From assembly GCA_013820875.1 (NCBI GenBank), contig JACDHS010000048.1, forward strand, positions 1-34,736: a stretch of DNA of 34,736 bases, in the 5' to 3' direction. This DNA comes from Verrucomicrobiota bacterium (lineage in GTDB: Bacteria > Verrucomicrobiota > Verrucomicrobiia > Limisphaerales > JACDHS01). Shown here piece by piece: positions 12,391 through 34,480 of the stretch. Within the stretch, counting starts at the first letter, position 1. Each line of letters opens with the position of its first letter. A program made the translations under genes and the position numbers. Under the pieces are notes generated by a model, which was given only the letters and a program-made list of their open reading frames with translations, had not been told where the DNA came from and searched no databases.

Positions 12391-12684
12391 GGTTCCAAGT
12401 CACTTCCAGATCATCCGGAAACCGTCCGCACACGTTCCAGGCCATTTCCGGATCATCCGGAAACCGTCCGCACACGTTCCAGGCCACTTTCGGATCATCC
12501 GGAAACCGTCCGCACACGTTCCAGGCCATTTTCGGATCATCCGGAAACCGTCCACACACGTTCCAGGCCGTTTTCGGATCATCCGGAAACCGTCCACACA
12601 CGTTCCAGGCCGTTTTCGGATCATCCGGAAACCGTCCGCACACGTTCCAGGCCATTTTCAGATCATCCGAAAACTTCCTAAACG
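12391..12684. repeat. Tandem array, seven units of exactly 42 bp
   Basis: Five near-identical 42-bp units (12433-12642) are flanked by one diverged unit on each side. Each full unit reads cgttccaggcc...ttcggatcatccggaa...cgtccgcaca. The core TCCGGAT-c-ATCCGGA is an inverted repeat with one central base, so each unit has an operator-like or hairpin-like centre. Differences are single-base changes with no indels. Because 42 is divisible by three, all frames stay open across it and give false ORFs with a 14-residue repeat on both strands. It lies between tRNA-His and the end of the aminotransferase gene. Confidence 0.92.
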
Positions 12685-14176: not shown

Positions 14177-14341
14177 CGGAGCGCGGCGCAACCGCAGAGC
14201 GGTTCGTCTCATTTATAGTTCTGATTTGTGCGAAGCATCAGCCGCAGCGCGTGAGATTGTTCGAGCGTCATAGAAGGCCCAGCAGCGCAACGTTCCAGCC
14301 TTGAGCGCTGCGGCTGATGCTTCGCACACAGCCGCGCTCCG
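14177..14341. mobile_element. MITE-like palindromic element, short copy
   Basis: The left arm (14177-14251) is identical over 69 bp to 18512-18580. The right arm (14305-14341) is its inverted complement, but lacks about 40 bp from the middle of the arm. The element has no ORF. It is inserted between the epimerase and aminotransferase genes of the same operon, so the transcript must cross a hairpin here. It could be a MITE or a long REP/BIME-type repeat. Confidence 0.8.
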
Positions 14342-18502: not shown

Positions 18503-18720
18503 GCGTGGAATCGGAGCGCGGCGCAACCGCAGAGCGGTTCGTCTCATTTATAGTTCTGATTTGTGCGAAGCATCAGCCGCGGCACGTTAGGATGGTATAA
18601 TAGCGTTTCGAGTCCCAATACCGGTCTCAAAATTCACGTGCGGCGGCTGATCCTGCGGACAAATCAGAACTATAGAAACAACGAACCGCTCTGCGGTTGC
18701 GCCGCGCTCCGATTCCACGC
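18503..18720. mobile_element. MITE-like palindromic element, full copy
   Basis: The outer 40 bp of the left arm (18503-18542) and right arm (18681-18720) are perfect inverted complements. The inner part of the arms (to 18580 and from 18643) pairs imperfectly, leaving a centre of about 60 bp. Total 218 bp, no ORF. 69 bp of the left arm recur exactly at 14177-14245. The size, long terminal inverted repeats and lack of genes fit a MITE or large REP-like palindrome; no target-site duplication is obvious. Confidence 0.85.
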
Positions 18721-18785
18721 AACTGCTCCTCCCACCTCACCTGTTTAAAATCACACCCCCTCATCACACGACGTAAACTCAGCAG

Positions 18786-18814
18786 TTGACCGTTTAAGAA
18801 ACTTTGACTAATAG
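18786..18814 (+). promoter_or_regulatory. Candidate leuA promoter
   Basis: TTGACC (18786-18791) is followed after exactly 17 bases by TAATAG (18809-18814). Transcription would start near 18820-18822, which is at or next to the GTG of the leader peptide, so the leader mRNA may have almost no 5' untranslated region. Confidence 0.55.
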
Positions 18815-18820
18815 TAACGC

Positions 18821-18889
18821 GTGAATCGAAACCTGAACCTACTGCTTACGAACGTGCTGCTGTCTGGCAGCGCGGCAGTCGGGGTTTAG
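18821..18889 (+). CDS. leuL: Leucine leader peptide of leuA
   Basis: This 22-codon frame starts with GTG and ends with TAG. Six of 22 codons are Leu (CTG, CTA, CTG, CTT, CTG, CTG), in two clusters: L-N-L-L-L at codons 5-9 and L-L at 13-14. There are also three Val codons. It lies directly upstream of an antiterminator strand and a terminator that precede leuA. This is the layout of a ribosome-mediated amino-acid attenuator: stalling at Leu codons when leucyl-tRNA is scarce. No Shine-Dalgarno is visible, which fits a leaderless message. Confidence 0.8.
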   Translation: MNRNLNLLLTNVLLSGSAAVGV

Positions 18890-18945
18890 TTTTCGGATCA
18901 CAAATTTCGAAGACCCCACTGCCAAAGTTGGCGGTGGGGTCTTTT
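18874..18945 (+). promoter_or_regulatory. Leucine attenuator: antiterminator and terminator
   Basis: The terminator stem GACCCCACTGCC (18912-18923) pairs with GGCGGTGGGGTC (18930-18941) over AAAGTT, followed by TTTT. Its 5' half can instead pair with GGCAGTCGGGGT (18874-18885), which equals the exact complement of ACCCCACTGCC plus one bulged C. The two folds exclude each other. The antiterminator strand covers the last codons of the leader, so a ribosome reaching the stop would hide it and allow termination, while one stalled at the Leu codons would leave it free. Confidence 0.85.
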
Positions 18946-18968
18946 GATTTAACGGGGTGATGGAGTTC

Positions 18969-19028
18969 TGGAGTGATGGATTACTGCGGTTGCAGTGCCT
19001 CCCAATACTCCACCGCTCCATTACTCCA
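18969..19028 (+). repeat. Inverted repeat upstream of the leuA start
   Basis: TGGAGTGATGGA (18969-18980) pairs with TCCATTACTCCA (19017-19028) with one mismatch-type G-T pair, and nearby TGGAGT/ACTCCA copies allow a longer fold. It ends 11 bases before the leuA ATG. It may affect translation or be a dispersed repeat. Confidence 0.5.
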
Positions 19029-19039
19029 TTTCGGAAAAT

Positions 19040-20608
19040 ATGAAAAACAATCGAATCATCATCTTTGACACAACGTTGCGCGATGGCGAGCAATGCCCGG
19101 GCGCATCCATGAATTTGCGAGAAAAACTGGAAGTCGCCCGCCAACTCGCACGCCTCAAAGTTGATGTGATCGAAGCCGGGTTCCCCGTCATCAGCGATGG
19201 CGATTTCGAAGCCGTTCACACCATTGCCAAAGAGGTTAAAGGCCCCATCATCTGCGGTCTCGCCCGTTGCGTTAACACAGATATCGATGCCGCCGGCAAA
19301 GCGGTGAAGCCGGCTGGCAAAAAGGGCCGTATCCACGTCTTCCTCGCCACGTCGAAGATTCATCGCGATTTCAAACTCGGCAAAGCGCAGAGCGAAATTA
19401 TCCGGCTCGCCGTGGAAGGTGTGAAGCGCGCCAAGTCCTGGGTGCATGATGTCGAATTTTCCCCTGAAGACGCCTCGCGCACAGAACCTGATTTCCTCGT
19501 TGAAGTCTGCAAAGCCGTCGTTAAAGCAGGCGCAACCGTCGTCAATATTCCGGATACAGTCGGCTGGGCTGTGCCGGAGGAATACGGCGCTCTCATCAAG
19601 TTGCTCCACGATTCCGTGCCGGAATTCAAATCCGGCAAAGCAATTATTTCTGTTCATTGCCACAACGACCTCGGGTTTGCGGTCGCCAATTCTTTGGCCG
19701 CCGTTCGCAACGGCGCGCGCCAGGTGGAATGCACCGTCAACGGAATCGGCGAACGCGCGGGCAATGCCGCGTTGGAAGAAATTGTCATGGCGACAAAGAC
19801 TCGCAGCGATTTCTTCAAGGGCATGACTTGCGGCGTGAACGCAAAGGAGATCGTCAAATCATCACGGCTTGTTTCCGGCATGTGCGGATTGGTTGTGCAA
19901 CGGAGTAAAGCGATCGTCGGCGAGAACGCGTTCGCCCACTCCAGCGGCATTCATCAGGACGGCATTTTGAAGAAGCGCGAGACCTACGAGATCATGGATC
20001 CGCAGACAGTCGGCTGGGGCAAGACGGAATTGCCACTCACAAAACACAGCGGACGCGCTGCCGTGGCGGTGCGATTGAAACATCTCGGTTTCAAGATGAC
20101 CGATGCCGATGTCGCCGCGCTCTTCGCGAAGTTTAAAGAAATCGGTGACAAGAAAAAATTTGTTTACGACGAAGATTTGGCCGCACTGGTCGAAGGGCAC
20201 ATTGCCGAAGTTCCGGAAACCTGGAGTTTGATCTATCTGAACGTGACCAGCGGAACCCAAACTGTTCCCACTGCGACCGTCACATTGACGAAAGCCGGAA
20301 AGAAAGAGGCCGAAAAAATCCTCCAGGATGCCGGTGTGGGCGATGGTCCGGTGGACGCTGCATTGAAAGCGATTGATCGCCTCACGAAGACTCGCGGCAA
20401 GTTGATGGATTACTCACTCCGCGCTGTTTCCCAGGGCAAAGACGCGTTGGGCGAAGTCACGGTAAAAGTGAATTTCGGCGACGGCGAACTCGTCACCGGA
20501 AAAGGCGCCAGCACCGACATCATCGAAGCGAGCGCCCGCGCGTATTTAAATGCCGTGAACCGTTTCCTCTGCAATGGGCGGGAGAAAGTCCGCCTGCGGC
20601 AGCCGTAA
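19040..20608 (+). CDS. leuA: 2-isopropylmalate synthase
   Basis: First committed enzyme of leucine synthesis: it condenses acetyl-CoA with 2-oxoisovalerate. 522 residues from the ATG at 19040; the frame upstream of it is not family-like. The DRE-TIM barrel signature [16 protein letters not shown] is at residues 8-23 (most homologues have S where this has C). The metal-binding HxH is in SVHCHNDLG, with [17 protein letters not shown] after it. The C-terminal regulatory LeuA dimer domain (about 380-515, ending in [19 protein letters not shown]) is present, so leucine feedback is likely. Expression appears controlled by the leader attenuator just upstream. Confidence 0.96.
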
Positions 20609-33880: not shown

Positions 33881-34259
33881 CGTAACCGAGTCCCAAAACG
33901 ATCGTTTTACGTCTCTGTAAACGTAACCGAGAGAGAAATGCGGGGAAAGTTGCCTCTGTAAACGTAACCGAGGGAGAAATGCGCGGAAAGTTGTCTCTGT
34001 AAACGTAACCGAGAGGGAAATGCGGGGAAAATTGTCTCTGTAAACGTAACCGAGAGAGAAATTCGGGGAAAGTTGTCTCGGTAAACGTAACCGAGAGAGA
34101 AATGCGCGGAAAGTTGCCTCGGTAAACGTAACCGAGAGAGAAATTCGGGGAAAATTGCCTCTGTAAATGTAACCGAGAGGGAAATGCGCGGAAAATTGAC
34201 TCTGTAAACGTAACCGAGAGAGAAATGCGGGGAAAGTTGTCTCTGTAAACGTAACCGAG
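33881..34259. repeat. Tandem array with exact 41-bp period, ten cores
   Basis: The core CGTAACCGAG occurs at 33881, 33922, 33963, 34004, 34045, 34086, 34127, 34168 (one change), 34209 and 34250, always 41 bp apart. Each unit also has TCTCtGTAAACGTAACcGAGA, a 7-bp inverted repeat around a 7-base loop that is perfect in the units reading TCTCGGT. Between units a purine-rich stretch (gaaatgcggggaaag) varies slightly. As 41 is not a multiple of three, the long ORFs across it cycle through all frames and are not genes. A 14-bp palindrome AAAACGATCGTTTT lies in the first unit (33895-33908). Confidence 0.92.
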
Positions 34260-34480
34260 AGGGCATTTTTGACGATTGGAAGGTTCCCGGAGGGATGAAC
34301 AAACGTTCAGTTCAGTGACGCCACCCAAACGCACCGCTTTCGCACAAGCGACCAATAGTCCGCCCACCACACCGACACACCATCACCCTTATCGCGGCTA
34401 CCTTGTCCGCCAGGCAGTCGGAAGTTTGAACGGATGGAAGGTGAAAGAACGGGCATTTTGCCGGATACGGTGGGACACAC
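34260..34480. other. Junction region between the 41-bp array and the recombinase remnant
   Basis: No gene is supported. The recombinase frame remains open into this part down to 34307, but the protein there no longer resembles the family, so a recombination or deletion junction lies near 34481. Confidence 0.5.

Follow-up and report, generated by a model that had tools for sequence, protein, structure and literature searches.

The leu leader of enterobacteria encodes a short peptide with clustered Leu codons, the rare CTA among them, and folds into competing hairpins. Leader peptide genes that are themselves leaderless have been described in actinobacteria, namely LeuL1, LeuL2, IlvL and TrpL of Streptomyces lividans and the leader of ilvB in Corynebacterium diphtheriae (PMC8079986, PMC5784534). 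The leuA leaders of actinobacteria carry the LEU pseudoknot element and have no typical intrinsic terminator (PMC1262725). In Sinorhizobium meliloti, the 5' end of the trpL/rnTrpL attenuator RNA is the leader ATG (PMC7298713).

The sequence analysed here (the window) is the whole 34,736-nucleotide stretch of contig JACDHS010000048.1, from a Limisphaerales genome of 5.7 Mb in 239 contigs. The region in front of leuA was read as a leucine transcription attenuator of the classical four-strand, ribosome-mediated kind, whose leader peptide gene is leaderless (probability about 0.9). What the sequence and its comparison with relatives show directly is the set of parts, how these are conserved and covary, the constancy of their spacings and the distance from promoter to start codon. 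The features are as follows.

18786-18791, plus strand: -35 element TTGACC of the leader promoter (direct reading)
18809-18814, plus strand: -10 element TAATAG, with a 17-nt spacer and 6 nt to the start codon (direct reading)
18821-18889, plus strand: leader peptide gene VNRNLNLLLTNVLLSGSAAVGV, GTG to TAG, 22 codons (direct reading, frame conserved in 63 loci)
18833-18845, plus strand: strand 1, first Leu cluster, pairing with strand 2 as protector or anti-antiterminator (predicted fold)
18853-18874, plus strand: hairpin P1, second Leu cluster in its 5' arm, nested within 1:2 (fold, relatives)
18874-18887, plus strand: strand 2, 5' strand of the antiterminator, GGCAGTCGGGGTTT, over the last codons (fold with strand 3, covariation)
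18910-18924, plus strand: strand 3, common to antiterminator and terminator (folds, covariation counts)
18929-18946, plus strand: strand 4 and T tract, intrinsic terminator (fold, covariation)
19040-20608, plus strand: leuA, 2-isopropylmalate synthase (TIGR00973, 703 bits, cutoff 598.7 bits; NF002086, 749 bits)

With its clustered Leu codons, its antiterminator and terminator and a predicted protector before leuA, the locus resembles the enterobacterial leu leader (leuL; RF00512 Leu_leader); unlike leuL, it is predicted to be leaderless, starts with GTG or ATG, and encodes AAVG[FV] in strand 2 before the stop codon. The RF00512 model aligned with the window leader over its full length at 16.6 bits (E 0.56), below its gathering cutoff of 50, and at the gathering threshold Rfam returned only a tRNA and no leader family. 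A predicted leaderless leader gene is shared with the actinobacterial leader peptides, which precede leuA, leuS, ilvB or trp, but a full terminator and antiterminator set the locus apart from the actinobacterial leuA leaders. It does not fall within the actinobacterial LEU element, given a strong terminator 94 nt upstream of the leuA ATG at 19040, and the predicted fold joins the Leu run to strand 2, whereas in the LEU element the run pairs with the Shine-Dalgarno (SD) box of leuA. The nearest actinobacterial parallel is LeuL2 before leuS, leaderless with a hairpin and a U stretch. The predicted 5' end at the leader start codon is as in S. meliloti trpL, which differs in responding to tryptophan, preceding trpE(G) and belonging to the Alphaproteobacteria.

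Repeated elements flank the leader. A long near-palindromic element (18505-18730) lies just 5' of the promoter, has 81 matches genome-wide on either strand and a further copy within the window at 14177-14328, and resembles a miniature mobile or REP-type element. The gap between terminator and leuA is occupied by a repeated palindrome (18946-19039; 27 genome matches; fold -43.6 kcal/mol) which ends just 5' of the leuA start and might influence how leuA is translated in this strain. Elsewhere in the window, two tandem arrays were found in DNA otherwise unassigned (12409-12674, 42-bp unit, 6.3 copies; 33911-34261, 41-bp unit, 8.6 copies).

A preliminary description of the window had placed a promoter with 17-bp spacing and a 22-codon frame with six Leu codons in two clusters in front of leuA, and direct reading found both where it had put them. 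Across 62 loci the -35/-10 spacer measured 16-18 nt, the -10 hexamer began with TA in 53, and the end of the -10 element stood 5-12 nt from the start codon, 8 nt being most frequent. In 65 of the 67 loci in which TTGAC was found, it lay 35-40 nt upstream of the leader start codon, a count that for about ten loci uses another in-frame start, one nearer 36 nt. A transcript from such a promoter would start on the start codon itself or a few bases away from it, so that the leader mRNA is very probably leaderless, and translation of the peptide appears to begin with the first base of the RNA. An SD core was present 5' of the leader start in 1 of 63 loci and 5' of leuA in 9 of 63; SD scarcity has been reported for Verrucomicrobiota (PMC10783764). 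Because SD cores are also scarce before leuA, the argument for a leaderless start is carried by the promoter distance and not by SD absence. It is unlikely that the attenuator is real but transcribed from further upstream, with an ordinary 5' UTR: the leader promoter does rest on consensus predictions, but the 35-40 nt distance, the -10 element at 16-18 nt spacing, the missing SD before the leader and the near-identical spacing of the ilvB leaders (TTGAC 34-40 nt before the start in 29 of 30 loci) all speak against it.

The six Leu codons of VNRNLNLLLTNVLLSGSAAVGV are codons 5, 7, 8, 9, 13 and 14. The frame is conserved in 63 loci at 22-25 codons, with a mean of 6.7 Leu per 23 codons, and counted from the stop codon Leu stands at -16 in 50, at -14 in 52, at -10 in 60 and at -9 in 55 of the 63. 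These codons vary synonymously (CTG/CTT/CTA/CTC/TTG). In the 63 leaders (L004-L082 plus the window), CTA makes up 12.7% of Leu codons versus 2.0% in leuA, and CTC 4.5% versus 34%, a sixfold excess of CTA and a sevenfold shortage of CTC in the leaders. Since CTG is also favoured by pairing in P1, only the CTA excess points to codon choice for sensitivity, which it suggests. The conserved C-terminus, AAVG[FV], abuts the stop codon, and strand 2, which encodes it, is fixed at the nucleotide level: the Gly codon at -2 is GGG in 47 of 48 cases, all three positions being nearly invariant. The final Leu codon ahead of strand 2 begins 24 or 27 nt from the stop codon in 58 of 63 loci.

That the product of the frame is a small functional peptide, the terminator merely ending the frame's own transcript, is barely credible. 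Such a gene would have its own promoter and terminator, as this frame does, and a conserved C-terminus such as AAVG[FV]; against this, the C-terminus is fixed in nucleotides, as strand 2 requires, the Leu positions change by synonymous drift, leuA or leuA2 lies downstream of the matches read in detail, and covariation between strands 2 and 3 would be needless.

The whole leader folded at -72.9 kcal/mol versus -37.2 for shuffled sequence (z -9.8). Within it, the antiterminator 2:3 (18874-18887/18910-18923) reached -25.5 kcal/mol (z -6.2), the terminator stem 3:4 (18909-18924/18929-18944) -29.9 kcal/mol over 16 bp (z -8.1), with a T tract running to about 18945, and the 1:2 protector with nested P1 (18833-18889) -28.4 kcal/mol (z -4.2). 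The T tract of the window is short and broken (TCTTTT). The antiterminator strand named in the preliminary description, GGCAGTCGGGGT, is exactly 18874-18885, and the pairing strand runs on to 18887. Its terminator stem with T tract is likewise present, although the 12 bp given there fall short of the 16 bp in the RNA fold, and its view of the two folds as mutually exclusive agrees with the competition of 2:3 and 3:4, both of which covary, for strand 3.

Covariation was scored in a 60-row alignment. In 3:4, 94.4% of cells were paired across the 60 sequences and 8 of 13 pairs showed both-sided changes, as did 6 of 7 pairs of P1 in relatives. P1 and 3:4 together had both-sided changes in 14 of 20 pairs (score 0.288 versus 0.186 shuffled, 0 of 500 as high), and 2:3 in 5 of 10 (0.191 versus 0.137, 0 of 500 as high); both scores also exceeded those of slid versions. 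Kinship of the sequences inflates such counts, so reliance was placed on covariation combined with geometry. The 1:2 protector was the least uniform part of the attenuator: the duplex averaged -17.8 across 63 loci versus -14.4 with shuffled codons, beat the codon shuffles in 52 and was no better than the shuffle mean in 11, and that of the window itself was weaker than the cross-locus control (-17.3 versus -18.3). The predicted protector would complete the four-strand design and, like the leaderless start, P1, the conservation throughout the order and the leuA2 and ilvB counterparts, was absent from the preliminary description. In the window it is lengthened by a stem (18821-18831/18891-18901) that includes the GTG start codon and that, in the finished RNA, would hide the leaderless start; a similar pair, GTGAATCGAAA...TTTCGATTCAC, was seen at L115.

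Control might also be non-classical, the Leu-rich frame being translated while stalling or another fold acts on leuA translation or Rho access and not on intrinsic termination, a mode put forward for the LEU element of actinobacteria. There is precedent in the leaderless Leu-rich leuA leader of Streptomyces, which has no typical terminator (PMC8079986), and in S. coelicolor leader mutants inconsistent with classical attenuation (PMC1262725). At the present locus this is highly improbable, with a strong intrinsic terminator, made of a covarying stem and a T tract, shortly past the stop codon, and with strand 2 complementing strand 3; the leuA start region need not take part in any pairing. A riboswitch, in which the RNA itself would bind leucine, was discounted, since conservation falls on codons and helices and no unpaired pocket is conserved.

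For the classical attenuator, the site of transcription start, stalling, termination and the response to leucine were inferred from these features. RNA polymerase would start at or beside the leader GTG, and a ribosome would initiate on the RNA 5' end without an SD site. With ample Leu-tRNA the ribosome would reach the stop codon and cover strand 2 (18874-18887), 3:4 would form, and transcription would terminate near 18945. With scarce Leu-tRNA it would stall in either Leu cluster. A stall in the first cluster would occupy strand 1 and preclude the 1:2 protector; one at codon -10 from the stop would leave the front edge of the ribosome about 2 nt short of strand 2. A ribosome extends about 12 nt beyond the first base of its A-site codon, and with this reach a stall at -10 leaves strand 2 just free, whereas at the stop codon it is covered. 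After either stall, the free strand 2 would pair with strand 3, no terminator would form and leuA would be transcribed. Without translation, 1:2 and 3:4 would form together, making termination the default.

Relatives were retrieved with LeuA as query (80 loci), and most of them have the same type of peptide ending in AAVG[FV], followed by a terminator. The comparison upstream of leuA proposed in the preliminary description largely bears it out, with conserved Leu codons (63 loci) and covariation of both stems (60-row alignment); homologues in which the Leu-rich frame is missing or the stems do not compete, which it had named as contrary evidence, are not the rule, most relatives keeping both features, and ribosome-mediated leucine attenuation before leuA remains the best reading. 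The leucine leader is absent before leuA in some relatives (e.g. L029, L031, L036, L043, L058, L062 and L069). In L036, L043, L058, L062 and L069, a different upstream sequence common to the group precedes leuA; there the attenuator was probably lost or replaced.

Specificity was gauged with a detector that required TTGAC, a start codon 34-40 nt further on, a frame of 15-35 codons including six or more Leu, and a terminator beyond the stop codon. It gave 57 matches in the 420 nt before leuA (81 sequences) and none elsewhere in 1.14 Mb on both strands, which excludes chance. A covariance model (R1) built from 60 leuA leaders, the window included, matched 242 of 293 genomes and 107 of 118 genera of Limisphaerales at E <= 0.001, a count that is partly circular as some genomes are training loci (e.g. 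L004, L114), although 107 genera exceed the 60 training rows. R1 also gave many matches of 22-37 bits across 289 genomes of the phylum (the own genome and other orders and classes); the 16 read outside the own genome were rejected, each being a terminator that follows a tRNA or another gene and has no leuA downstream. As modelled, the R1 sequence family looks confined to the order.

R1 also matched before a second type of leuA in G293, G411 and G570 (L117, L115 and L116, respectively), whose enzyme of 557-569 aa we take to be the yeast/actinobacterial type of 2-isopropylmalate synthase. As predicted from these matches, one switch is placed before two distantly related enzymes of the same step. 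Of 26 leuA loci from other orders of the class, 16 carry a Leu-rich leader that follows TTGAC or TTGCC at 35-40 nt, has a C-terminus other than AAVG[FV] and is succeeded by a terminator; no such leader was found at the other ten, families f3 and f4 among them. In other classes, which were skimmed, Leu-rich leaders occur too, some of them leaderless.

A second attenuator was found in the own genome before ilvB (L094:1989-2086, C68, minus strand), the only real one among the weaker own-genome R1 matches that were read. Its Val-rich leader, MIFAAQLVVARAVVVVCDDAVRSCCA, has TTGAC 37 nt upstream of the ATG and is followed by a terminator. Among the ilvB loci of the order that were examined, those of 30 genomes with the own genome among them, 29 of 30 have a Val-rich, predicted leaderless leader and a terminator, the C-terminus being mostly AVGACRA-like. 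No attenuator was found at trpE of the own genome, which lies directly behind an upstream gene.

A literature search, which went without most subscription papers and the broad attenuation surveys, returned no description of a leucine or other amino acid attenuator, or of a leaderless leader peptide, in Verrucomicrobiota, and nothing that contradicts the suggestion in the preliminary description that the attenuator may be new there. As judged from sequence, the mechanism is a known one, the phylum is new for it, and the RNA family is new. Leaderless attenuation by intrinsic terminators may, as a tentative and somewhat doubtful extension, be a general control of branched-chain synthesis in Verrucomicrobiia and neighbouring classes, covering two leuA isozymes and, through Val codons, ilvB; if so, loading by leaderless initiation means that the switch would sense the capacity for 5'-end initiation besides the charging of Leu-tRNA. 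The leader would provide a complete, testable regulatory RNA family, absent from Rfam 15, for a large and mostly uncultured phylum. Its constant TTGAC-to-start spacing makes leaderless translation in Verrucomicrobiota directly testable, and the conserved geometry may allow amino acid regulons of uncultured members to be predicted from genomes only.
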